Shown piece after piece: positions 3,845 through 58,362 of a stretch of 64,000 nt of DNA. The position numbers and the translations under genes are program-made. How positions within the stretch are numbered: position 1 is the stretch's first letter; each line of letters begins with the position of its first letter. The stretch covers positions 74,074,919 through 74,138,918 of the forward strand of contig CM057464.1 in the NCBI GenBank assembly GCA_030035585.1, in the 5' to 3' direction. This DNA comes from Dugong dugon. Taxonomy: Eukaryota > Chordata > Mammalia > Sirenia > Dugongidae. The notes under the pieces were generated by a model. It searched no databases, was not told where the DNA came from, and worked only from the letters and a program-made list of their open reading frames with translations.

Positions 3845-4440
3845 GTCTGAAATTTTACTTTACTTAGAAGTTAACAAGTAAGCTGTCATAGATGCTAGAT
3901 GGAGGCACAAGACTCCTGGGTCAGAGATAAAGAAAATTTATCACCCACAGCAAGAGCAGTAACACGAGTATAAGAATTTGTGCTGATTCCTCAAGCCTCA
4001 ACTCCCATGGGGCAAAGCAAAAAGGGCCATGTGTCTTCTTCTTCGTATGCAGTGGGTTGCATTACAGGGGAGAAACTCTATGCTTAGAGAATCTGAATCT
4101 TTTATCATGGGCAATAATCATATCTATCCTTTGCTCTGGAGGTAAAAACTATGTTTATTACACTTGACAGTGAGCAAGCCTTCCCTTTGCTTCGAAGGGA
4201 GACTTTATTTCTACCTTCCAAGGCTGTAAGCAAATTTACCCTTTGATCCCAAAGGAGACACTATTTCTATCATTCAATTCTGTTCCCCATACAAAACTCT
4301 TGAAAGAATATTCTGCAACAAAGACAGTTAGTGCTTCTATTTCCAAAACATACAGAAATTCAAGGGATCCAGGAAGTATTATTTCCCAGTAATTGCCATC
4401 CTTCATTTTTATACCATCTTGGCTGCTGAAAATTTTCCTA
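3845..4440 (-). repeat. LTR-like repeat, copy A of a divergent pair
   Basis: The sequence shares order and many short blocks with 5665-6100: 'tgaaattttac' near the start, 'gactcctggtca', a TTTAT (reverse AATAAA) segment, 'ggttgcattacag', 'cctttgctct.gagg', 'ttccaaggctg' and 'cttgaaa.atattc'. Two similar flanks around about 1.2 kb of unrelated sequence are the layout of an old provirus reduced to LTRs plus remnant. The minus orientation is inferred from the reverse-complement poly(A) signal. The family was not assigned, and two independent insertions of one repeat are an alternative. Confidence 0.5.
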
Positions 4441-6522: not shown

Positions 6523-6677
6523 GGAGCCCTGGTGGTACAGTGGTTAAGAACTTGGCTGCTAACCAAAAAGCTGGCAGTTCGAATTCACCAGCCGCTCCTT
6601 GGAAACCCTATAAGGCAGTTCTACTCTGTCCTATAGGGTTACTATGAGTCAGAATTGACTCGATGGCAACGGGTTTA
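6523..6677 (+). mobile_element. AfroSINE (tRNA-derived SINE)
   Basis: The tRNA-like head has an A-box-like 'tggtacagtggttaag' and a B-box-like 'ggcagttcgaattc'. A body follows with 'ggcagttctactctgtcc', then the tail 'gactcgatggcaacgggttt'. Such SINEs are transcribed by RNA polymerase III and moved in trans by a LINE. The tail matches the 3' end of the RTE copies in this window. Confidence 0.95.
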
Positions 6678-7303: not shown

Positions 7304-8802
7304 TTTTATATATTTTATTGTACTTCAGGTGAAAGCTTACAGAGCAAATAGTTTCTCATGAAATAGTAGTACACATGTTGTTCTATGACATTGGTTAACA
7401 ACCCCACAATGTATTAAGCCTCTAAATTCCCAACCTTTTTTTTTTTTTTTTTTGATGAAAATTACAGATGGCCAAAGATACACCGTTTCAAAAATTTCTA
7501 CATTCACAGTTCAGTGACATTGACTACGCTCTTCCAACTGTGCTGTTATTCTCACTTAAGATGAAGGCTTACAGAACAAAATAGTTTTTCATTTAACAGT
7601 TACTACACATGTTGCCCTATGACAATGGTTAACAATCTCACAGCACATCAAGAATATCCTTACTCCACCTTGTGTTCCCTATCACCAGGGGACTTCCTTG
7701 TCCCCTTCTGTCTTCTGGACCTTGTCAGTGGACTATCGTACCTCTTTAGTCTCATTTGTTTATTTTTATTTACTTTTTTATTTTATTTTATTTTATTTAA
7801 ACACCATTTCAAAACTTTTTACTTACACATTTAAGTGATATTGACTATGCTCTTCCAATTGTGCTGCCATTCTCGCCCAAGATGAAGGCTTACAGGACAA
7901 AACAGCCTCCCATTTAATAGTTACTACAAATGTTGCCCTATAGCAGTGGTCAACAATCTCACAATACATCGACAGTGTCCTTATTCAATTTGTGTTCCTT
8001 ATCATCAGTTTCCTACTCTCCCTCTGCCTTCTGGCCCTTGTCACCGGACTCCTGTACCTCGTTAGTCCCATTTAGTTTTACTGGGCTGTCCACTCCCAGG
8101 CTTAACATCAAACCTCTAAGGTAACTTCACCTCTGAGCTGAAAGGGTGTCTGGGGACCACACTCTTGAGGTTTCTCTAGTATTCTTTAGGCCAGTAAATC
8201 TGGTCTTCTTTTTTTTTTGGGAGTTAAAATTATGCTCTACATCCTTCTCCAGCTCTGCCCAGAACCCTCTGTTGTGATCCTGGTCAGAGGAGTCATTGGT
8301 GGTAGCCAGGCACCATCAAGCTGTACTGGACTCAGTCCGGTGGAGGCCTTGGTAGCTGTGGACAATTAGTCGTTTGGACTAATCTTTTCACTGAATCCTG
8401 TTCTCTTCATTCTCCCTTGTTCCCGAAGGGATGAAATCAGTGGAGTATCTTAGATGGCCGCTCATAGGCTTTTAAGACCCCAGACACTACTCACCAAGGT
8501 AGAATGTAGAGCATTATCTTTATAAGTAGTGTCATGCCAATTGAGCTAGATGTTCCCCGAGATCATGGTCCCCAGAGCCCTCCGTCCAACAACTCAGTCC
8601 CTCGGGGGGTTTGGATGTGTCTATAGGGCCTCCATGACCTTTCCTTGTGCAGGCTGTGTTACTTTCCCCTGTACTATGTACTATCTCACCTCTCACCCAA
8701 GTTACCACTTACCTATTACCTATTTAGTATTCCCCCCCCCACCCCATCCCTGGTAACCAGCAAGGATTGTTACATTTTGCATGTGAATTTTTTCGTGGGT
8801 TT
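7304..8802 (-). other. L1 3'UTR with three terminal modules
   Basis: From the ORF2 end towards the tail there are three copies of a module containing 'gttaaccattgtcatagggc' and 'aaatgagaaactattttgtt' by gist, at about 7880-7970, 7560-7650 and 7320-7420. Between them lie a segment with 'ggaagagcgtagtcaatgtc' and an old A-run (T-run at 7437-7456). A TTTTA-rich microsatellite occupies about 7760-7800. The poly(A) signal is TTTATT on the plus strand at 7314-7319. A G-rich tract (C-rich on plus, 8729-8757) lies near the start. Confidence 0.85.
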
Positions 8803-14807: not shown

Positions 14808-16510
14808 TCAGTGCCTACAAATGGGACCCAGAGAGCCCCCACTCAGGGGCGCAAATTCCAAGAAGCCGGTAGTCTCGGGGTTAAGAGACTGTGGCCACGG
14901 GAAGCAGAGGGGCCAACGAACAAAGGCCCCGGGATCCCACCAGCGTGGCAGCCCAGACCTGGAAACAGCCACGCGCCCGAACGCAGCCCCACAGCTCCGC
15001 AGAAGAGAGCAAAGACGGCACTCGGAACCAGGCACCGAGGCAAAAGGAGGGGGAGGCGGCAGAAAAAGTTTCGCTAGCTGCCAGCAAATGGCTCCCAGAA
15101 AGCCGCCAGCCCAGGCGTGCATAATCCAAGCACCGGCCCCCCCCAGCCCAGGGATTCTGGCCACGGAAAGCAGAGAGGCGAACGAGCAAAGGCCCCGGGA
15201 TCCCTCCAGCACAGGAGCCCAGACCTGGAAACAGCCACACGCCTGAACGCAGCCCTACAGCCCCGCAGGAGAGAGCAGAGACAGCACTCGGAACCAGGCA
15301 CCCAGGCAAAAGGAGGGGGAGGCGGCAGAAAAAGGTTCACTAGCTGCCAGCAAACGGCTCCCAGAAAGCCGCCAGCCCTGGCGCGCGGAATCCAAGCACC
15401 GGCGCCCCCCAGCTCAGGGACCCCGGCCACGGAAAGCAGTGGGGTGAATGAACAAAGGCCCCGGGATCCCACCAGCGTGGGAGCCCAGACCTGGAAACAG
15501 CCACACGCCCGAACGCAGCCCCTCAGCTCCGCAGAAGAGAGCAAAGACGGCACTCAGAACCAGGCACCCAGGCAAAAGGAGGGGGAGGTGGCAGAAAAAG
15601 GTTCGCTAGCTGCCAGCAAACGGCTCCCAGAAAGCCGCCAGCCCGGGCGCGCGGAATCCAAGCACTGGCGCCCCCCAGCTCAGGGACTCCGGCCACGGAA
15701 AGCAGAGGGGCGAACGAACAAAGGCCCCGGGATCCCACCCGCACGGGAGCCCAGACCTGGAAACAGCCACACGCCCGAACGCAGCCCTACAGCCCTGCAA
15801 GAGAGAGCAGAGACGGCACTCAGAACCAGGCACCCAGGCAAAAGGAGGGGGAGGTGGCAGAAAAAGGTTCGCTAGCTGCCAGCAAACGGCTCCCAGAAAG
15901 CCGCCAGCCCGGGCGCGCGGAATCCAAGCACTGGCGCCCCCCAGCTCAGGGACTCCGGCCACGGAAAGCAGAGGGGCGAACGAACAAAGGCCCCGGGATC
16001 CCACCCGCACGGGAGCCCAGACCTGGAAACAGCCACACGCCCGAACGCAGCCCTACAGCCCTGCAAGAGAGAGCAGAGACGGCACTCAGAACCAGGCACC
16101 CAGGCAAAAGGAGGGGGAGGTGGCAGAAAAAGGTTCGCTAGCTGCCAGCAAACGGCTCCCAGAAAGCCGCCAGCCCGGGCGCGCGGAATCCAAGCACTGG
16201 CGCCCCCCAGCTCAGGGACTCCGGCCACGGAAAGCAGAGGGGCGAACGAACAAAGGCCCCGGGATCCCACCCGCGTGGGAGCCCAGACCTGGAAACAGCC
16301 ACACGCCCGAACGCAGCCCTACAGCCCCGCAGGAGAGAGCAGAGACAGCACTCGGAACCAGGCACCCAGGCAAAAGGAGGGGGAGGCGGCAGAAAAAGGT
16401 TCGCTAGCTGCCAGCAAACGGCTCCCAGAAAGCCTCCAGCCCGGGCGCACGGAATCCAAGCACCAGCGCCCCCCAGCCCAGGGACCCTGGCCACGGAAAG
16501 CAGGGGATCC
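14808..16510 (-). repeat. Tandem 266-bp monomers of the L1 5'UTR (promoter array)
   Basis: The landmark 'ctagctgccagcaaa' recurs at 15074, 15340, 15606, 15872, 16138 and 16404, exactly 266 bp apart each time. There are therefore about 6.4 monomers with no net indel. They are GC- and CpG-rich, unlike the AT-rich surroundings. The units starting at 15606 and 15872 look identical by eye, and the next differs at a few sites. By analogy with mouse L1, tandem 5' monomers are promoter units. Because 266 is not a multiple of 3, the open frames across the array are by-products. Confidence 0.95.
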
Positions 16511-36381: not shown

Positions 36382-38105
36382 AATGTGCAAAGACCTGGAG
36401 TTAGAAAGCCAAAAGGAAAGAACACAATAAGCATTTCTCAAGCTGAAAGAACTAAAGAAAAAATTCAAGCCTTAAGTTGCAATACTGAAGGATTCTAAGG
36501 ACAAAATACTGAACAATGCAGGAAGCATCAAACGAAGATGGAAGGAATACACAGAGTTCCTGTACCAAAAAGAATTTGTCGATGTTCAAACATTTTAGGA
36601 GGTAGCATATGATCAAGAACCAACGTTAATGAAGAAAGATGTCCAAGCTGCACTGAGGGCGCTGGCAAAAAACAAGGCTCCAGGAATTGACAGAATATCA
36701 ATTGAAATGTTTCAACAAATGGATGTAACACTGGAAGCGCTCACTCATATATGCCAAGAAATTTGAAAGACAGCTACCTGGCCAGACGACTAAAAGAGAT
36801 CCATATTTGTGCCCATTCCAAAGAAAAGTGATCCAACTGAATGCAGAAATTATCAAACAATATCATTAATATCACACACAAGTAGAATTTTGCTGAAGAT
36901 AATTCAAAAATGGTTGCAGCAGTATATTGACAGGGAACTGCCAGACATTCAAGCCAGATTCAGAAGAGGACGTGGAACAAGGGATATCGTTGCTGATGTC
37001 AGATACATCTTGGCTGAAAGCAGAGAATACCAGAAAGATGTTTACCTGTGTTTTACTGACTACGCAAAGGAATTCATAATAAATTATGGATAATATTGCA
37101 AAGAATGGGAATTCCGTAACACTTAACTATGCTCATGAGGAACCTGTACATAGACCAAGAAGCAGTCATCGAACAGAACAAGGGGATACTGCGTGGTTTA
37201 AAATCCGAAAAGGTGTGTGTTATATCTTTTTATAATACTTATTCAACCTGTATGCTGAGCAAATAATCCAAGAAGCTAGATTATATGAAGACAAACATGG
37301 TATCAGGATTGGAGGAACACTCATTAACAATCTGTGATATGCAGATAACACAATCTTGCTTGATGAAAGTGAAGAGGACCTAAAGCACTTACTGATGAAG
37401 ATCAAAGACTACAGTCTTCAGTATGGATTACACCTTAATATAAAGAAAACAAAAATCCTCACAACGGGATCAGTGAACAACATCATGATAGATGGAGAAA
37501 ATATTGAAGTTGTCAAGGATTTCATCTTACTTGGATCCACAATCCACCATGGAAGCAGTAGTCAAGAAATTAACCCACATACTGCATTGGGCAAATCTGC
37601 TGCAAAAGATGTCTTTAAAGTGTTAAAAGAGCAAAGATGTCGTTTTGACCCAAGCCATGGTATTTTCAATCGTCTCATATGTGTGTGAAAGCTGGACAAT
37701 GAATAACAAAGACTAAAGAAGAATTGATGCTTTGATGCCTTTGAATTATGGTGTTGGCGAAGAATATTGAATATACCATGGACTGCCAGAAGAATGAACA
37801 GATCAGTGTTGGAAGAAGTACAGCCAGAATGCTCATTACAAGCAAGGATGGCGGGACTTCGTCTCATGTACATTGGACATGTTATCAGGAGGGACCTGTC
37901 CCCGGAGAAAGACGTCATGCTTGGTAAAGTAGCAGGGTCAGTGAAGAAGAGGAAGACCCTCAATGAGATGAACTAACACTGTGGCTGCAACAACGCACAG
38001 AAACATAGCAATGATTGTGAGGATGGTGCAGGACCAGGCAGTGTTTCGTTCTGTTGATAGGGCTGCTATGAGTTGGAACCAATTTGATGGCACCCAACAG
38101 CACTA
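36382..38105 (+). mobile_element. RTE (BovB-like) LINE, 5' truncated
   Basis: The sequence begins inside the coding region ('atgtgcaaagacctggagtt') and follows the RTE at 48061-58362 to its 3' end ('gctatgagttggaacc', 'cacccaacagc'). Coding pieces are at 36809-37093 (RT fingers/palm, 'SRILLKIIQKWLQQYIDREL', motif A 'CFTDYAKEF'), 37356-37688 and 37767-37976. The catalytic YADD is YADN at 37338-37349 and is preceded by a stop. It is an inactive, 5'-truncated copy about 1.7 kb long. Confidence 0.93.
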
Positions 38106-46589: not shown

Positions 46590-48892
46590 CACCACTTTTC
46601 TGTTAGTTTGTAGTACTGCAGGGGCTTGCATGTTGCTGTGATGCTGGAAGCTATGACAACAGTTACCAGCAGGGTAACGCATAGTGGACAGGTATCATTG
46701 GAGGTTCCAGACTAAGACAGACTAGGAAGAAAGATCTGGTGATCTATTTCTAACAAACAATAACAATAACAAAAAAAAAAAAAAAACTAGCCAATGAAAA
46801 CTTTATTAATAGCAGTGGAACACTGTCTGATACAGTGCCAGAAGAAGAGCCCCTCAGGTCAGAAGGCACTCAAAATAATGACTGGGGAAGAGTTGCCTCC
46901 TCAAAGTAGAATTGACCTTAATGATGTGGATGGAGTAAAGCCTTTGGAACCTTCATTTGCTGATGTGTCACTACTAAAAATAAGAAGAAACATCTGCAGA
47001 CATCCGTTAATAATCAGGACATGGGCAGTACAAATTATGAATCTAGGAAAATAGGAAGCTGTCAAAAATGAAATAGAATGCATAAAGATCGATATCCTAG
47101 GCATTAAGGAACAGAAATGGACTGATATGGGCCATTCTGAATCAGACAATCATATGATCTACTATGCTGAAAATGAAAAATTGAAGCAGAATGGCTTTGC
47201 ATTCATCATCAAAAAGAACACTCAAAGATCTGTCCTGAAGTACAATGCTGTCAGTGATAGGACAATATCCACATGTCTACAAGGAAGACCAGTTAATACA
47301 ACTATTATTCAAATTTACCCACAAATCACTAATGCCAAAGATGAAGTAATTGAAAAGTTTTACTAACTTCTATAGGCTGACATTGATCAAACATGCAATC
47401 AAGATGCACTGATAATTACTGGTTATTGGAAAGTGAAAGTTAGAAACAAAGAAGAAAGATCAGCAGTTGGAAAATACAATCTTGGTGACAGAAACAAAGC
47501 CGGAGATCTCATGATATAATTTTACAAGACAAACAACTTATCCATTGCAAATACTTTTTTTCAACAACAAAAATGATAACTATACACATTGACTTTGCCT
47601 AATGGAATACATAGGAATCAAGTCGAGTATATCTGAGGAAGGAGAGAATGGAGAAGCTCAGTATCATCAGTTAGAAGAAGGCCAGGGGCTGAATGTGGAA
47701 CATATCATCAAAAGCTCATACGCAAGTTCACGTTGAAGCTGACGAAAATTAAAGTAAGTCCATGAGAGCCAAAGTACGACCTTGAGTATATCCCACTTGA
47801 ATTCACAGTCCATCTCAAGAATCGATTTGATGCATTGAACAATGACTGAAGATCAGACTAGTTGTGGGAAGACATCATATATGAAGAAAACAAAAGGTCT
47901 TTAAAAAGATAGGAAAGAAAGAAAAGACCAAAATGGATATCACAAGATACTCTAAAACTTGCTCTTCAACAGCATAACTAAAGTGAAAGGAAAAAATGAT
48001 GAAGTAAAAGAGCTGAAAAGAACATTCCAGAGGGCAGCTTGAGAAGACAAACTACTATAATGAAATGTGCAAAGACCTGGAGTTAGAAAACCAAAAGGGA
48101 AAAAACATGCTTGGCATTTCTCAAGCTGAAAGAACTAAAGAAAAAATTCAAACCCCAAGTTGCAATACTGAAGGATTGTATGGGCAAACTACTGAATGAT
48201 GTAGGAAGCGTCAAAAGAAGATGGAAGGAATAAACAGTCAATGTACCAAAAAAAAAAAAAAAAAGGTCAAAATTCCACAATTTCAGAAGGTAGCAAATGA
48301 TCAAAAACTGATGGTATTAAAGGAAGAAGTCCAAGCTGCACTGAAGGCACTGGTGAAAAACAAGGCTCCAAGAACTGACAGAATACCAAGTGAGATGTTT
48401 CAACAAACAGATGCAATGCTGGAAGCGCTCACTCATCAATGCCCAGAAATTTGGAAGACAGCTACCTGGCCAACAGACTGGAAGAGATCCATATTTGTGC
48501 CCATTCCAAAGAAAGGTGACCCAACAGAATGTATAAACTATAGAGCAATATCATTAATATCAAACACAAATAAAATTTTGCTGAAGACCATTCAAAAAAT
48601 GGTTGCAGCCGTACATTAACAGGAAACTGCCAGAAATTCAAGCCAGATTCAGAAGAGGATGTGGAATGAGGGATATCACTGCTGATGTCAGAAGGATACT
48701 GGCTGAAAGCTGAGAATACCAGAAAGATGTTTACCTATGTTTTATGGACTATGCAAAGGCATTCGACTGTGTGGATCATAACAAGTTATGGGTTACATTG
48801 CAAAGAATGAGAATTCCAGAACACGTACGTGTGCTCATGCGGAACCTGAGCAGAGCTAGGGGATACTCAGTGCTTTAAAATCAGAAAAGGTC
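46590..48892 (+). mobile_element. RTE (BovB-like) LINE, 5' part (split by an L1 compound)
   Basis: The head starts near 'tgttagtttgtagtactgca' and matches the reverse complement of 29170-29368. The endonuclease region runs 46900-47560, with open pieces at 46794-47054 and 47127-47366 and the word 'GYWKVKVRNKEERSAVGKYN' in frame near 47420. RT fingers lie at 48221-48619, and RT motif A 'YLCFMDYAKAFDCVDH' near 48735-48780 still has its aspartates. Several stops and A-run expansions break the frame. The element continues at 57481, and together the two parts make about 3.2 kb, roughly full RTE length. Confidence 0.93.
48877..48892. repeat. Target-site duplication, left copy, of the L1 compound
   Basis: 'aaaatcagaaaaggtc' is part of the RTE sequence and recurs at 57465-57480. 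The preceding 'cttt/aaaa' gives the canonical L1 endonuclease site TTTT/AA on the bottom strand. Confidence 0.93.
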
Positions 48893-50459
48893 AGACTTCC
48901 AGGAACATGGCTCTTCAGGCAGAAGCACCACGCCATCCCTCCACAGCAAAGATCCGAAAAACTAAGCCAAACAGAGAAAACAGCAATCCTGAAACCTTAA
49001 AATATAAAATTAGGAGATAAAGAACTCAGCCAAGCACTAAATGGAGTGTGAAAACTGACAGAGAAAAGAGAGCAAGGAGAGGTTCATGCAGAGGTCCCCT
49101 ATCAGCTAACACAGTGTGGATTTGCCATCTTGGACTCCGATCAGAGACCAGCAAATAGGGGGTACAAGAAAGCAGCTTCATGGAGCTTCCAGCAGGAGAC
49201 AGAACAACCGGTAATTGGCGATATACGCTTTCCCACCTCCCACCCTTCTTCAACCCCTCTTGGCCTCCTCTGCTTCCCGCAGTCACAGTCTCTTGGCCAG
49301 GAAGCACCGGCTGCTTGGATTCCACCTGCCTGCACTGACTGACTCCGGGTGCCATTTGTTGGCTGCTGGTGTGGCTTTTTTCTGCTTCTTTTGATTTCTT
49401 CTTTACCGCTTACCCCTTCCCCCTCCTTTCACTCAAATACCTGGCTCCGTGTGCCATCTTTGCTTCTTCCTGGGGGGCTGCGGAGCTCCATTCAAGTGTG
49501 GAACTGCTTCCCAGTCTGGGCTGCCATGCTGGTGGGATCCCAGGGCTTTCGTTTGCTTGTTCTGAATTGTTTGTTTTCTTGTCCTTTTCTCAAGTTGGGA
49601 GCCCATTCTGACCAGGCAGTGCTACATGGCTTGGGACCTACCCCCTCAGCTTGCGCAGACAGGCAGAGGGATCCCTGAGTACATTTCTTTTTTTTTTTTT
49701 ATGGGGTTTTTTCTGTTTTTTGGGGGGATTCACTTTTTTTTTTAATTTGTTTTGTTTTCTTTTCCCTCTTTTTCCCTTTTTGTCTTTCTTTATTACTCAT
49801 TTTCTCATCTCTCTATACCTTCCTTCTCTTCCTGTCCCCTGAATACCAGGAAATGAATTCCTCCATGCCTTCTATCCAGGTTGTACTGCAGCACATGGGA
49901 ACACCAGGGGGATCCCTGGGAGCTCTGCTGTTCTTTTTTCTTCCTAAAATTTTTATTTATTCATTCTTTTTTTTTTCTTCTTCTTCCCCTTTTTTGTTTT
50001 TCTCCATTTCATAGTCTCTCATCTCTCCACTCCAACAGCAAGCCCCCCTAGCATTCTTTTTTGTTTGTTTGCATGTTTTTGGCTCCTGTTCCTCTCTCCT
50101 CTCTCCCATACCCATCTTAGCTCCACACATCACAATCTCCCCCCTCCATCCTGCCTACCAGCACTGTGCACTTGACATCACACCACCAAGCAGCACAGGC
50201 ACAGCCTACTGGAACCTGCCCTGCACAGATTACTGACCTGCCCTGGTGGCTTTAGTAAGTGCCACAAACAACCCACACCAGCAACTCCTCTTCAGCTAGA
50301 CCTATCCTGCTGTACCATATCTGAGAGACTGACCCTGCCTACAGATGCGCAAACAACAAAGAACACACAGCCCGCCTGCTCAGACATAACCAAATTTAAA
50401 AAAAAAAGGACAAAAAAAAACAAATCTACAATCAATAAACAAGAAAAAATAACTACTGA
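48893..50459 (+). promoter_or_regulatory. L1 5'UTR of the upstream ORF2-less copy
   Basis: Homologous to 14091-16869 in reverse, but with only about one monomer (words 'ggctgcttggattccacc', 'gccatttgttggctgctg', 'tgctggtgggatccc'). Pyrimidine-rich T-runs are present near 49690 and 49735. CpG content is lower than in the intact array. Confidence 0.8.
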
Positions 50460-51521
50460 ATGCCCTGAAGGCAGCAGACAATATCAAAACGTTTACAAAA
50501 GCAGGACAGTATGTTTCCAATAGGCATCCAAAATAAAACACAAAATGACTTTCCAGTGGAAGAAAAAGCACTAGAACTACCTGATAGGGAATTCAAACCT
50601 CTAATACTCGGAATTATCCAAGAGTTGAAGCAAAAAGCAGACAAAAATGAGGAAAAAATAGACAAATTCATGGAAAAGGCAGAAAAATTCATGGAAAATA
50701 CAGACAAAAAAAATGGAAGAATTCAGGAAAATAATGCAGGAACAAAACGCAAAAATAAATTCACAACTAGAAATAAAAAAACAACACTTAGAAAGCCAAA
50801 AGATAAACAATAAGATTTCAGAAATGGACAGTGTCACAGAAGGGCTGAGGGGCAGATTTGAAAAGGTGGAAGACAGGATCACCGGAATTCAAGACAAATA
50901 CTTAGATACAACTTGGTTTGAGGAAAAATCAGAAAAAAATAAAGAAGAAAAATGAAGAGACCCTGAGAATTATGTGGGATACAATCAAAAGCAAAAATCT
51001 TCAAGTGATCAGAGTTCCAGAACAGGCAGAGAAACCAGAAGACACAGAGAGAAGCATTGAAGAACTGCTGACAGAAAACTTCCCCAATATCATGAAAGAT
51101 GACAAGCTGACCATCCAAGAAGCTCAATGAACCCCATATAGGATAGACCCCAAAATAAAATCACCAAGGCATATCATAATCACACTCGCCAAAAGCAAAG
51201 ACAAACAAAGAATCCTGAGAGCAGCTCGAGAAAAACAAAACTCACAAGAAAGGAGAAACAATAAGACTAAGCTCAGATTATTCAGCAGAAACCATGCAGG
51301 CAAGAAGGCAATGGGATGACATATATAAAACCTTGAAAGAAAAAAATTGCCAGCCAAGAATAGTATATCCTGCAAAACTCTTGCTCAGATATGATGGTGA
51401 AATTAGGTCCTTTCTAGATAAAAAGAAATTAACAGACTATGTAAAAACTAAACCAAACTTATGAGACTTATTAAAAGAAGTCCTTCGATCTGAGAACAAA
51501 CAATATCAGACCACAGGCTGA
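50460..51521 (+). pseudogene. L1 ORF1 pseudogene (upstream ORF2-less copy)
   Basis: The ancestral start at 50460 reads ATG CCC TGA: codon 3, CGA in the full-length L1, is now a stop. The frame 50511-50813 keeps 'ALELPDREFKPLILGIIQEL' and the coiled-coil region with a short extra repeat ('MEKAEKFMENTDKK'). A frameshift follows near 50710. 50918-51130 and 51290-51521 cover the RRM/C-terminal region with further breaks. The codon run Q-L-E-I-K-K-Q lacks the TAA stop shared by the other two copies. Confidence 0.9.
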
Positions 51522-53272
51522 ATATAGGATACAAGATTGTACCAGCTAGATACCAACCTAGGAAATGAACTCTTAAGGACTATGAAAAACCAAAAGAATT
51601 ACAAAAGGGAACCAGAGAGGTTAATCTGTAAATGACAGCAGCATCAGAAAAATAAAAGAGGGAACAAACAGCATAGAGATGGAACCTTCTAATGGAAAGG
51701 AAGTCAAGCGATACCAAGTAATAATACACCGGTTCAAATCTAGGAAGATAAGGGTAAATTTCACGGTAATCACAAAGAAAGTTAACAAACCTACTCATCA
51801 AAATAAAGAAGAAAAAATAAAGTCTCAGTAAAAACAAACCTACAAAAACAAAAGAAATGGAAAAAAAATCCACAAACAAAAGGAACTCAGCACAGGAGAG
51901 TAAGAGGAACAACACTGGAGGTCATTACGCTGAGTGAAATATGTCAATCATGAAAGGAAAAACATTGTATGAGACCTCTACTGTATAACTCATGTAAATG
52001 TTGACACACAAAGGGAAACAATCTTTGTTGGTTATGAGGGATGGGAGGAGTGGGGGGGGCACTAAACAGACAAGTGGTAACTTTGGTGAAGGCTAAGACA
52101 GTACAAATTACTGGGGAGGCCAGCACAAATTGTACAAGGAAAGGTCATGGTAGCTCCACAGACGCTTCCAAATTCCCTGAGGGAATGAATTGCTGGGCGG
52201 AGGGCTGTGGGGACCATGGTCTCAGGGAACACCTAGCTCAATTGGCATAACACATTTTATAAAGACAATGTTCTACATTCTACCTTGGTGAGTAGCATCT
52301 GAGGTCTTAAAAGCCCGTGAGCAGCCATCTAAGATACTCCATTCATCTCACCCCTTCGGGAGCAAGGGAGAACAAAGAAAACAAGATACAAGGAAAAGAT
52401 TAGTCCAAAGGACTAATGGACCACAGCTAACATGGCCTCCACCAGACTGAGTCCAGTGCAGCTGGATGGTGCCTGGCTACGACCACTGACTATTCTGACT
52501 GGGATCACAATAGAGGGTCCTGGACAGAGCTGGAAGGGGATGTAGAACCGAATTCTAACTCACAAAAAAAGACCAGATTTACTGGCCTGACAGACTGGAG
52601 AAACCCTGAGAGTATAGCCCCTGGACACCCTTTTAGCTCAGTGGTGAAGCCCCTCCTGAAATTCACCATTCAGCTGGGGATTGGACAGCCTCATAAAACA
52701 AAATAAGACTAATAAGGCACAGCAGTCCAGGGTCAAGGACTACAAGGCAGGAGGGGACATGAAAACTGGTGATACGGAACCCAAGGTCGAGAAGTGACAG
52801 TGTTGACATGTCATGGGGTTGTTAACCATTGTCATGGGGCAATATGTGTACTGTTTAATGAGAAACGATTTGTTCTGCAAACCTTCATCTAAGGTACAAA
52901 AAAAAAAAAAAAGAATTATCTATATGAGATCAAATTGACAACAGCAACTCAGAAGGTTTGATGGGAAGCCCAGGGGACAGTGAGTTGAAGATAATGGTGA
53001 TGGAATAATTTAGAAAAGGATAGTGAGAATAGCAGCACAACTGGAAGAATGTAATCGATGTCACTGAATTGTACATATAGACTTTCAAAATGGTATAACT
53101 TTGGCTATGTATATTTTCACCAAAAAAAGATCCTAAAGATCAAGAAGGCAGAGTGTTGACATGTCATGGGGTTGTTGACCAGTGTCATAGAACAATATGT
53201 GTACTGACTGTTTAATGAGAAACAATTTATTCTGTAAACCTTCATCTAAAGTACAAGAAAAAAAAAAAAAAA
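51522..53272 (+). other. Spacer, ORF2 remnant and composite 3'UTR
   Basis: 51522-51912 is inter-ORF spacer. 51913-52000 is the ORF2 C-terminal remnant. A G-rich tract follows at 52037-52061. The first L1 3' end is at about 52795-52912, then 105 bp of unrelated sequence (52913-53017). Next come a segment with 'tgaattgtacatatagac' and 'ttcaccaaaaaaag' that looks like an older L1's 3' end, and a second terminal module. Confidence 0.8.
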
Positions 53273-55159
53273 GAGGTAGTCCCGGCAAAATGGCGCTCTA
53301 GGCAGAAGCACCACGCCATCCCTCCACAGCAAAGATCTGAAAAACTAAGCCGAACAGAGAAAACAACAATCCTGAAACCCTAAAACATCAAATGAAGAGA
53401 AAAAGAAATCAGCCAAGCACTAAATGGAGTGAGAAAACTGAAAGAGAATGGAGAGCAAGGAGAGATTCATGCAGAGGTCCTCTACCAGCTAACACAGCGC
53501 GGATCCACCATCTTGGACTCCTATCGGAGACCAGCAAACAGGGGGTGCGAGAAAGCAGCCTCATGGAGCGTCCAGCGGGAGAGAAAACAACCAGTAATTT
53601 GCGACATACGCTTTCCCAACCCCCACCCTTCTTCACCCTGACTCGGCATTCTCTGCTTCCTGCAGCCACAATCTCTTGACTGGGAAACACCAGCTGCTTG
53701 GATTCCAGACACCCGAACGGGCCAGCTCTCTGAGTGCCGTTTGTTGGCTGCTGCTATTGCTTTTTTCCACATCTTTTGATTTCTTCCTTACCTCTCAGCA
53801 CTTCTCCCTCCTTTCGCTCAAATACCTGGCTCCAAACACCATCTTTGCCTCTTCCCGAGGGGCTACAGAGCTCTGGTAATTTGTGATTTACGCTTTCCCA
53901 CTCCCTACCCTTCTTCACCCACACTCAGCCCCCTCTGCTTCCCGTGGACACAGTCTCTTGTCTGAGAAACACCAGCCCGCACTAGCTGGCTCTCTGAGTG
54001 CCATTTGTTAGCTGCTAGTGTTGCTTTTTTTTTCTGCTTCTTTTGATTTCTTCCTTACCTCTCACCACCTTCCCCTCCTTTCGCTCAAATACCTGGCTCC
54101 GTACAGCAGTTTGCTTCTTCCTGAGGGACTGTGGAACTCTGTTCAAGTTTGGTGCTGCTCCCCGGTCTGGGCTACCGTGCTGGTGGGATCCCGAGGCTTT
54201 TGTTCGTTGGTTTTGAATTGCTTGTTTTCTTTTCCTTTTCTTGAGTTGACAGCCCTTTCTGGCCAGGCGGTGCTGCGTGGCAAGGAGACATCCCCCTTGG
54301 CTTGCACAGATGTTCAGAGGGATCCCTGAGGACATTTCTTTTTCATTGTTTTTTTCTATTTTTGGGGGGGCCTTTCCTGTTTTTTTTTTTTAAATTTGAT
54401 TTCTTTTCTTTTCCCTCTTTTTCCCTTTTTGTCTTTCTTCATTGCTCAGTTTCTCGTCTACATGTATCTTCCTTCTCTTTCTGTTCCCTGAATACCTGGT
54501 GTTGTATACCTCTATACCTTCTAGCCAGGCTGTACTGCAACAACTGAGAGTGACTTCGCCAGACCTCATAGCTGCACCGGTGGGATCCCTGGGAACTTTG
54601 CAGTTCTTTAACCTTTCCAATTTTTATTTATTCATTCTTTTCTTTTCTTCCTCCTCCCCTTTCTTTTTTTCTCCATTTTATAGTCTCTCATCTCTCCACT
54701 CCAACGGCAAGCTCCCCTAGCATCCTTTTTTGTTTGTTTGTATGTTTTTCGCTCCTGTTCCTCTCTCCTCTCTCCCATATCCATCTTAGCTCCACACATA
54801 ATAATCTCCCCACTGCATCCTGCCTACCTGCACTGTGTGCTTGACATCATACCAACAAGCAGCAAAGGCATGGCCTAGTGGGACCTGCCCTGCACTGATT
54901 ACCGACCCACTCTGGTGGCTGTAGTAAGTGCCACAAACAACCCGCCCAGTAACTCCTCTTCAGCTAGACCTTCCCTGCCGTACCACATCTGAGTGACTGA
55001 CCCTGCCAACTGGAGAAGGAGGCAAAAAGTATTCTGCCCACAGACAAGCAAACAACAAAGTACACACAGTCCGCCTGCTCAAACATAGTCAAAATTTTTT
55101 TTAAAAAAGGGATGAAACAAACAAATCTACAATCAATAAACAAGAAAATTAACCACTGA
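53273..55159 (+). promoter_or_regulatory. L1 5'UTR of the downstream ORF2-less copy
   Basis: Two monomer-like units with the repeated words 'gccgtttgttggctgctg' (about 53725) and 'gccatttgttagctgcta' (about 54000), and 'cctttcgctcaaatacctgg' twice, at an interval near 265 bp. It is thus a shorter version of the array at 14808-16510. Confidence 0.8.
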
Positions 55160-56203
55160 ATGCCCTGAAGACAGCAGACAATATCAAAACATTTACAAAA
55201 ACAGGAAAGGATAGGTCCAGCAGGAGTCCAAAATAAAACACCAGATGACTCTCCAATGGAAGAAAATGCACTGGAACTACCTGATAGGGAATTCAAATCT
55301 CTAATACTCAGAATTCTCCAAGAGCTGAGGCAAAAAGCTGACAAACATCAGGAAAAAATAGACAAATTCATGGAAAATGTGGACAAAAAATTGGAGGAAT
55401 TCAGGAAAATAATGCAGGAACAAAATGCCAAAATAAATTCACAACTAGAAATTATACAAAGATAACAATTAGAAATCCAAAAGATAAACAACAAGATTCC
55501 AGAAATGAACGGTGTCATAGAAGGGCTGAGAAGCAGATTTGAAATGGTGGAAGACAGGATCAGTGGAATTGAAGACAAACACTTGGATACAACTCTGAGA
55601 AAAACTCAGAAAAAAGAACAAAGAAAAATGAAGAGACCCTGAGAGTTATGTGGGATACAATCAAAAGCAAAAATTTGCAAGTGATAGGAATTCCAGAACA
55701 GGGAGAAAAAAGAAAACACAGAGAGGATTATTAAAGAACTGCTGACTAAAAACTTCCCCAATATCCATGAAAATGAAAAGCTGGCCATCCAAGAAGCTCA
55801 ACAAACCCCATACAGGAGAGACCCCAAAAGAAAATCACCAACGCATATCATAATCACACTCGCCAAAACCAAAGACAAACAAAGAATCCTGAGAGCAGCT
55901 CGTGAAAAACAAGAAGTCACATACAGAGGAGAAACAATAAGACTAAGCTCAGATTATTCGGCAGAAATCACGCACGCAAGAAAGCAATGGGATGACTTAT
56001 ATAAACTCTTGAAATAAAAAAATTGCCATCCAAGAATAATATATCCTGCAAAACTCTCATTCAAATTTGATGGTGAAATTAGGTCATTTCCAGATAAACT
56101 GAAATTAAGGGAATATGTGAAAGTCAAACCAAACTTATAGGAATTATTAAAGGGAGTTCTTCGATCTGAGGACAAACAAATTCGGCTCACAGGCAGAATC
56201 TAG
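55160..56203 (+). pseudogene. L1 ORF1 pseudogene (downstream ORF2-less copy)
   Basis: The ancestral ATG at 55160 has TGA at codon 3, as in the upstream copy. 55256-55465 is open ('ALELPDREFKSLILRILQEL', coiled coil 'KADKHQEKIDKFMENVDKKL') and stops at TAA, at the same codon as the third stop of the full-length L1. Further frame breaks occur near 55610 and 55735. The C-terminal domain (55740-56203) ends at TAG exactly where the full-length L1 ORF1 ends. Confidence 0.92.
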
Positions 56204-56211
56204 GACACAAG

Positions 56212-57464
56212 ATGGATGAAACTGGAGGACACTATGCTGAGTGAGATAAGTCGATCACAAAAGGACAAATATTGTATGAGACCTCTATTGTAAAAACCCA
56301 TGAAAAAGTTCACACACAAAATGTAACAATCTTTGTTGGTTACCAGGGATGGGAGGGGTTGGGGGGGAAATACTAAATAGGCAATAGATAAGTGGTAGCT
56401 TGGGTGAAGGGTGAGACAGTACACAATACAGGGGAAACTAGCACAACTTGTACAAGGAAAGGTCATGGACGACCCATAGGCACATCCAAACTCCCTGAGG
56501 GACTGAATTGCTGGGCGGAGGGATCTGGGGACCATGGTCTCAGGGAACATCTAGCTCAACTGGCATGACACAGCTTATAAAGACAATGCTCTACATTCTA
56601 CCTTGGTGAGTAGTGTCTGGGGTCTTAAAAGCCTGTGAGCGGCCATCTAAGATACTCCATTGGTCTCATCCCTTCGGGAGCAAGGGAGAATGAAGAGAAC
56701 AGGATACAAGGAAAAGATTAGCCTGAAGGACAAATTGTCCACTGCTACCAAGGCCTCCACCATACTGAGAGCAGTAGAGCTAGATGGTGCCCGGCTACCA
56801 CCACTGACTGCTCTGACCAAGATCACAACAGAGGGTTCTGGACAGATCTGGAGAAGGATGTAGAGCATAATTCTAACTCACAAAAAAAAAAAAAAAAGAC
56901 CAGATTTACTGGCCTAAAGGAGACTGGAGAAACCCAAGAGTCCGGCCCCCAGACATTCTTTTAGCTTAGTGGTGAAGTCATCTCTGAGGTTCACTGTTCA
57001 GCCTAGAAGTGGACAGCCCCGTAAAACCAAATGAGACTAATGAGGTACAGTAGTCCAGTGATAAGGGCCAGAAGGCAGCAGGGGTCAAGGAAGCTGGTGA
57101 TAGGGAACCCAAGGTTGGGTAAGGATATTGTCAATGTTTTGTGAGATTCTTAACCATTGTCATAGGGCAACACGTGTAGTAACTGTTAAATGAGAAACTA
57201 TTTTTTTGTTAGCCTTCATCTTAAGTGAGAATAACAGCACGATTGGAAGAGCGTAGTCAATGTCACTGAACTGTGCATGTAGAAATTTTTGAAATGGTGT
57301 ATCTTTGGCTATGTGTATTTTCACCAAAAAAAAAAAAGGTTGAGAAGTTAAAGGGTTGACATGTTGTGGGGTTGGTAACCAATGTCATAAAACAATATAT
57401 TTACTACTGTTTCATGAGAAACTATTTGTTCTGTAAGCCTTCACCTGAAGTACAATTAAAAAAA
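56212..57464 (+). other. ORF2 C-terminal remnant and 3'UTR
   Basis: The remnant keeps about 30 open codons of the ORF2 end (W-M-K-L-E ... to TAA near 56291). The 3'UTR contains a G-rich tract at 56341-56366, a first terminal module ending near 57225, the 'ggaagagcgtagtcaatgtc' segment, and a second module to the tail. Confidence 0.82.
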
Positions 57465-57480
57465 AAAATCAGAAAAGGTC
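57465..57480. repeat. Target-site duplication, right copy, of the L1 compound
   Basis: Same 16 bases as 48877-48892. After them the RTE sequence resumes without loss ('tgcatcagggatttcc'). Confidence 0.93.
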
Positions 57481-58362
57481 TGCATCAGGGATTTCCCTTT
57501 CACAATACTTATTCAATCTGTATGTTGAGCCAATAATCCAAGAAGCTGGACTATATGAAGAAGAATGCGGCATCAGGATTCGAGAAAGATTCATTAACAA
57601 CCTGCGACATGCAGATGGCACAACCTTGCTTGCTGAAAGCAAGGAAGACTTGAAGCACTTACTGTTGAAGATCGAAGACCACAACTTTCAGTATGGATTA
57701 CACCTCAACACAAAGAGGAAAAAAAAAAAAAAAACCCTCATAACTGGACCGATAAGCAACATCTTTATAAATGGAGAAAATAACTGAAGTTGTCAAGGAT
57801 TTCATTTTACTTGGATCCATAATCATAGCCCAGGGAAGCAGCAGTCAAGAAATCAAAGAATGTATTGCACTGGGCAAATCTGCAAGGAGTCACTTTGAGG
57901 ACTAAGGTGTGTCTGACCCAAGCCATGGTGTTTTAGTCACCTCATATCATGTGAAAGGTGGACAATGAATAAGAAAGACCAAAGAAGAATTGATGTATTT
58001 GAATTACGGTGCTAGCGAAAAATACTGAATATATTATGGTCTGCTAGAAGTACCGATAAATCTTTCCTGGAAGAAGTACAGCCAGAATGCTCTTTAGAAG
58101 TGAGCTTGACCAGACTCTGTCTCATGTACTTTGGACATATTATTAGGAGGCTTCAGTCCACGGACAAGGATATCATGCTTGGTAAAGTAAAGGGTCAGCA
58201 AAAAAGAGAAAGACCTTCAACGTGATGGACTGACACAGTGGCAGCAACAATGTGCTCGAACACACTAACAATTGTGGGGATGGCGCAGGACTGGGCAGTG
58301 TTTAGTTCTGTTGTACACAGGATCGCTATGAGTTGGAACTGACTCTACAGCACCTAACCTTA
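57481..58362 (+). mobile_element. RTE (BovB-like) LINE, 3' part
   Basis: Continuation of the RTE from 48892. The RT motif C, YADD in active elements, reads HADG at 57608-57619. An A-run expansion of about 17 at 57718-57734 disrupts the frame. The 3' end, 'gctatgagttggaactgact' then 'cagcacctaacctta', gives the tail shared with AfroSINEs. Confidence 0.92.

Follow-up and report, generated by a model that had tools for sequence, protein, structure and literature searches.

What becomes of an L1 element that has lost most of its second open reading frame (ORF2): does it remain a single damaged copy, or can it found a family that spreads with ORF1 alone? The question is raised by a stretch of 64,000 nucleotides from the dugong, Dugong dugon (assembly GCA_030035585.1, contig CM057464.1, positions 74,074,919 to 74,138,918 of the forward strand), here called the window, in which two ORF2-deleted L1 copies, copy 1 and copy 2, stand head-to-tail (Table 1). 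An initial annotation, which took the host for an elephant where the genome is that of the dugong, proposed that both copies belong to an ORF1-only lineage resembling HAL1 ('half-L1') elements, families of mammals that keep ORF1, have lost ORF2, carry A-tails and target-site duplications (TSDs) and depend on L1 (PMC5322556). The elephant host was rejected also on p53: a p53-domain search gave 11 matches, in three clusters of three exons and one retrocopy-like place, which agrees with manatee, where there is one TP53 retrogene, and not with elephant, where there are 19 (PMC5061548). For copy 1 the proposal stands: it falls within an ORF1-only (HAL1-type) family that has been amplified, here family A, because its junction recurs at 1,186 dispersed places. 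For copy 2 it does not: this copy is a standard L1 outside the amplification, and its deletion is private, because its junction occurs at one place. We hold with high confidence that copy 1 belongs, and copy 2 does not, to a HAL1-type family of the dugong lineage that numbers at least 1,186 copies; the source of this family, left with only the last 24 codons of ORF2, would probably have spread with ORF2 protein supplied in trans.

Dispersal of the two deletion junctions

Alignment to a full-length L1 in the same window, which served as a yardstick, bears out the anatomy first ascribed to the pair, in that both copies retain the 5' untranslated region (UTR), the ORF1 region (ATG at 50460 in copy 1 and 55160 in copy 2) and the 3'UTR and are without most of ORF2. 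Copy 1 runs in the order 5'UTR, ORF1, intergenic region, junction, last 24 ORF2 codons, 3'UTR and A-rich tail. In the coordinates of the yardstick, the sequence missing from copy 1 lies between ~12651 and ~8875, and that missing from copy 2 between ~13043 and ~8890. As the initial annotation had it, the left breaks differ (~390 nt past the ORF1 stop in copy 1, 8 nt past it in copy 2) and the right breaks, at ~51913 and ~56212, nearly coincide; the alignment places them ~8-10 nt apart within the W-M-K-L codons of the ORF2 C-terminus. The two copies are ~80-84% identical to each other across long matching stretches, and copy 2 matches the full-length L1 of the window at 94% identity over 55115-56206.

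Dispersal of the junctions had been set beforehand as the test of the proposed lineage, and it was run on the whole genome (3,158,355,915 bases, 196 contigs). A 38-nt pattern over the copy 1 junction (junction A), allowed up to 3 mismatches, matched 1,186 places across the genome (625 + 561), and a 39-nt pattern over the copy 2 junction, at the same tolerance, matched one place in 3.16 Gb. Reversed-pattern controls for junction A, for the copy 2 junction and for a further junction described below (B) all returned 0, on which ground a chance junction was rejected. With a 71-nt query over junction A, 13 spanning places, the window included, were obtained among 40 scored of 220 candidates, 12 of them covering query positions 1-71 and one 2-68; with a 71-nt query over the copy 2 junction, the sole whole-length match among 40 scored of 982 candidates was the window itself. 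For comparison, the places where the left half of the family-A pattern runs on into intact L1 intergenic sequence number 17,491 (up to 3 mismatches; family B, introduced below, included), and the ORF2 start of the window L1 was counted at 6,544. The dispersal test thus came out in favour of copy 1, whose junction lies at many places, and against copy 2, and with a single place for its junction copy 2 was also rejected as a founder or member of the family. The reading in which each copy suffered a private deletion once it had inserted holds for copy 2, but as an account of the pair it is very improbable indeed, given that the same break A is found at 1,186 places in elements with differing flanks.

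The anatomy of family A was followed in 32 fetched loci, namely 12 others from the first junction search and 20 zero-mismatch pattern places, the latter all on contigs C1 and C2 and biased toward undamaged junctions. Junction A is present in all 32, where it removes L1 positions ~12650 to ~8877 and with them the ORF2 endonuclease and reverse transcriptase. Most of the loci (29/32) start within ~50 nt of the L1 5' end, a high share that holds for copies selected by a junction 1.4 kb from the 3' end, and three are 5'-truncated (L011, L033 and L037). When the flanks of the 29 5'-complete loci were compared, no pair was alike on both sides, although 5 pairs have repeats in common on the 5' side alone and 4 pairs on the 3' side alone; the idea that a single locus had been segmentally duplicated was rejected on this count. 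The TSD score exceeds the 95% level of mismatched flanks at 13 of the 29 loci, and A-rich tails, some of them A/T-rich, stand at 11 of 12 printed 3' ends, the remaining locus (L015) stopping short of the tail. Family A therefore presents the structural features of the HAL1 type: it is L1-derived, retains ORF1, has lost ORF2, is dispersed, and shows TSDs and A-rich tails.

Movement of family A and the state of its ORF1

Passage through RNA has left traces in the 5'UTR. Four of the 5'-complete copies (L016, L019, L022 and L023) are without 5'UTR introns bounded by GT-AG, defined by one donor and three AG acceptors (near 49800, 50013 and 50193), and these four therefore passed through RNA. Seven unspliced copies were compared: all seven keep the donor together with the first two acceptors, and five keep the third; in copy 1 of the window the first acceptor is without its G. 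In human, L1 copies of this spliced kind go by the name of SpIREs (spliced integrated retrotransposed L1s; PMC5860796). The 4/29 family-A copies resemble these in the absence of intra-5'UTR introns, but differ in sitting within an ORF2-less sirenian family whose ORF2 loss is no product of splicing.

Because TSDs, A-rich tails and splicing traces are all found, family A was probably inserted with L1 ORF2 protein acting in trans. As the sequence shows, a source element had lost ORF2 save its last 24 codons, at a junction with ~3 nt of microhomology and no splice signal seen; it retained the 5'UTR, a presumably open ORF1, the 3'UTR and an A-rich tail. We propose that its RNA would then have been inserted by target-primed reverse transcription using ORF2 protein from contemporary autonomous L1s. 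Among 29 sequences (copy 1 and 28 loci, with L011, L023, L033 and L037 left out; the set also used for ORF1) the mean pairwise Kimura two-parameter distance is 0.111, or 0.084 without CpG columns, and the minimum over all columns is 0.077, so that no very recent pair was sampled. Halving the pairwise values would put the copies about 4% (roughly 3.5-4%) from their source without CpG. Mammalian substitution rates are 1.5-2.2e-9 per year, and a rough age of the order of 20-30 million years is suggested.

Several observations weigh against this account of a dispersed family with an open ORF1. No TSD above the null was obtained for 16 of the 29 5'-complete copies, which is expected in old copies yet is no proof of insertion, and in a shuffle test of the first 11 loci only 5 had a TSD at p < 0.05. 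Not one of the 29 family-A sequences is free of ORF1 stops and frameshifts, and five premature stops, each common to 8-12 of the 29, could be inherited, the other stops being scattered. We read the shared stops as probable recurrent damage at mutable sites: the one at 51128 fits a change of CGA to TGA, because the full-length L1 has an arginine there, while the others could have been inherited from a source with a stop. In favour of the account, 27 family-A copies average 2.8 stops per copy in the ORF1 frame over the 3' part of ORF1, where the two other frames have 12.4 and 10.1, and the ORF1 of the source was presumably open. A further point on the adverse side concerns selection. Variants present in at least 3 copies are less nonsynonymous (35 nonsynonymous to 19 synonymous) than singletons (368 to 107, with an expectation of 2.86:1), but the p value of 0.04 is weak, and the fixed differences of families A and B from young L1, 9 nonsynonymous to 3 synonymous over the 121 codons of the ORF1 3' part, show no constraint. 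Selection on ORF1 in family A, with the protein aiding in cis the RNA that encodes it, as opposed to mere carriage of the frame, would accord with an open ORF1 in the source and with the lower nonsynonymous share of the commoner variants; those variants include recurrent mutation, however, and the 5'UTR and 3' end alone may account for the spread, and we consider such selection possible though somewhat doubtful.

A second family and the origin of the ORF2 deletions

Family B, which the initial annotation does not mention, was found where places in two search lists stood 287-292 nt apart (three places). Its junction, ACTACAAAATG/CAATCCCACTCC, joins the ORF2 start codon to the last ~96 codons of ORF2, with the right break at L1 position ~9094, and its pattern occurs at 2,635 places (up to 3 mismatches). 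Fourteen of 15 examined loci are B, the remaining one (L053) continuing into ORF2; among four loci chosen by the intergenic variant regardless of junction B, three are B; and the two B copies read further upstream both reach the L1 5' end. The intergenic A-run ahead of the ORF2 start is strongly expanded in three B loci (L046, L050 and L054).

From the start of ORF1 to the 3' end, identity between A and B is about that among A copies, and in trees A copies are intermixed with B copies. Of 816 non-CpG columns that span the ORF1 3' part plus the intergenic region, 0 are fixed differently between the families (at least 80%), and of 390 columns of the 3' part 1 is, while 22 and 11 columns, respectively, set A and B together apart from young L1 (4 and 6 young L1 rows). 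These fixed-difference counts and the distance counts omit A_L011, A_L036 and A_L030, which the trees included: A_L011 is in one tree the older neighbouring element, and L036 and L030 are each placed beyond the A/B clade by one tree, which means that leaving both out favours tidy groups. The 3' part of L036 groups outside families A and B in one tree, as in a chimeric copy. Upstream of ORF1 the picture changes: just before its start, A-B identity is 80-83% against 88% among A copies. Family A is nearer to the L1 of copy 2 than to each of two typed B copies in 7 of 9 windows of the 5'UTR, and both typed B copies are without ~150 nt of 5'UTR found in A and in copy 2.

These data bear on whether family A is a second-step derivative of B, produced by a further ~266-nt deletion together with an exchange of 5'UTR, a derivation to which we give an even chance. 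The near absence of fixed differences, the 22 and 11 columns that separate both families from young L1 and the intermixture in trees are consistent with it, as is the finding that A equals B minus 236-291 nt in the 12 B loci measured (265-271 nt in 7 of the 12). The closeness of the A 5'UTR to that of copy 2's L1 and the ~150 nt that B copies are without speak against it, as does the abundance of intact L1s of the A/B intergenic type, whose ORF2 starts were counted at 3,969 places (up to 1 mismatch) and from which two independent losses of ORF2 from one stock are therefore possible. On present alignments, descent of A from B and descent of A and B from one L1 stock appear about equally probable. 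We offer more tentatively, as something that may well not be so, that within one mammalian lineage one L1 stock lost ORF2 at least twice and thereby gave two large ORF1-only families with differing 5'UTRs and a common ORF1-to-3' sequence, so that ORF1-only elements made up a modular sub-population in competition with autonomous L1s for ORF2 protein.

Family B also bears on the near-coincident right breaks, from which the initial annotation had drawn a recurrent mechanism. Such a mechanism, whether a hotspot or splicing, would cut L1 ORF2 at the W-M-K-L codons, and the breaks of family A and copy 2, ~8-10 nt apart, speak for one: if right ends were uniform over ORF2, the chance of two falling within 10 nt would be about 1/200 by an arithmetic estimate. 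The right break of B, however, lies ~217 nt upstream, and that of an older element at locus L011 ~300 nt downstream, at 8578. The recurrent mechanism is not supported, because the pair was picked post hoc, the copy 2 junction is a one-off that does not recur, and these two other junctions end elsewhere; we regard it as improbable. The older element at L011 (1819-4770, oriented) is an L1 with a different ORF2 deletion, 12344 joined to 8578, and lies upstream of the 5'-truncated family-A copy.

Splicing fares no better as a cause of ORF2 loss. For A and B the parental sequence was read by eye just past the left break and shows no GT there, and at the left break of copy 2, with copy 1 standing in for the parent, the letters are TG, not GT; on this basis splicing was rejected. 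The right break of B does have an AG before it (locus L044), which by itself we take to be chance, and microhomology at the ORF2-deletion breaks amounts to only 1-3 nt. The 5'UTR splicing described above thus does not account for the loss of ORF2.

HAL1 families have arisen independently several times (PMC5753468), and were described by Smit 1999 and Bao and Jurka 2010, as cited in PMC5753468, PMC5322556 and PMC4161310. They share with family A descent from L1, a kept ORF1, a lost ORF2, a poly(A) tail and TSDs, and they rely on L1 reverse transcriptase; A and B differ in coming from dugong L1 stock and in being a related pair of families in which neither the ORF2 deletions nor the 5'UTRs are alike. 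The excerpted literature yielded no named HAL1-type family of elephant, manatee or dugong, and a prior name in Repbase or Dfam is possible. Guinea pig HAL1-1 and HAL1-3 and marmoset HAL1-1C are tabled among young families, for which the accompanying text gives less than 1% divergence (PMC3183009). Like family A these are tied to one lineage, but by that figure they stand at less than 1% where family A would stand at ~3.5-4% from its source without CpG. The guinea pig and marmoset families and family A are all younger than the ancient HAL1 of human.

What the L1 ORF1 protein contributes to the RNA that encodes it is a question for which HAL1-type elements offer a natural test. Sirenian families of such size, with two ORF2 deletions, different 5'UTRs and plentiful autonomous L1s of the same type, would permit selection and inertia, as reasons for the retention of ORF1, to be compared at the level of codons. 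In addition, counts of 'full-length' L1s that rely on matching the two ends could take in thousands of ORF2-less copies.

Layout of the window

Table 1. Positions of L1 features in the 64,000-nt dugong window
Feature	Position	Strand	Remarks
Copy 1 (5'-complete, family A, ORF2-less L1)	48894..53274	+	collinear with ~4.4-kb elements elsewhere; junction at 1,186 places
5'UTR splice donor CCG/GTAA	49209..49212	+	used by 4/29 5'-complete family-A copies
Copy 1 ORF1	50460..51521	+	354 codons in family frame; decayed, with premature stops and frameshifts
Copy 1 intergenic region, kept by family A	51522..51913	+	ends ~35 nt short of the lost ORF2 start codon
Family-A junction	51910..51914	+	GAACAAA/AAACTGG, ~3-nt microhomology; CAAC in copy 1
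Copy 1 3' part: last 24 ORF2 codons (counted on full-length L1), 3'UTR, A-rich tail	51914..53274	+	
Copy 2 (ordinary L1, private ORF2 deletion)	~53275..57466	+	directly adjoins copy 1 A-tail
Copy 2 junction	56211..56213	+	~2-nt microhomology; single place in genome
Left TSD AATCAGAAAAGGTC, inside RTE element	48879..48892	+	14-nt exact match to 57467-57480; 0/500 shuffles as good
Right TSD AATCAGAAAAGGTC	57467..57480	+	one 14-nt duplication encloses copies 1 and 2 jointly
Yardstick full-length L1	7295..16862	-	ORF1 end 13046, ORF2 start 12614

One correction concerns extent: copy 1 runs past a first A-run at 52915 to the end listed in Table 1. A separate TSD was sought for each copy and none was found (p 0.62 and 0.56); the uninterrupted RTE target site is present in locus L014. 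The simplest order of events would be that copy 1 inserted first and copy 2 later into its A-tail, because copy 2 begins right after the A-run of copy 1. Reading-frame remnants at 37338-37688, 47055-47366, 48200-48619 and 57449-57787 are presumably of RTE type, the last two being one element split by copies 1 and 2.

A Pfam search placed L1 ORF1 domains on copy 2 and on the full-length L1, in the pieces homologous to the copy 1 ORF1, and returned no L1 ORF1 domain for the N-terminal piece of the copy 1 ORF1, whose C-terminal piece bears stops. The family-A 3'UTR holds an internal direct duplication (52783-52915 and 53136-53272 in the window), and L021 and L031 are without the inter-repeat stretch or part of it, as if it had been excised between the 3'UTR repeats. 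In the yardstick L1, the 5'UTR contains about six tandem 266-bp units at 14893-16503 of the reverse strand, a monomeric promoter as in mouse, and tandem 5'UTR units are reported from L1 of hyrax and elephant (PMC9022269).

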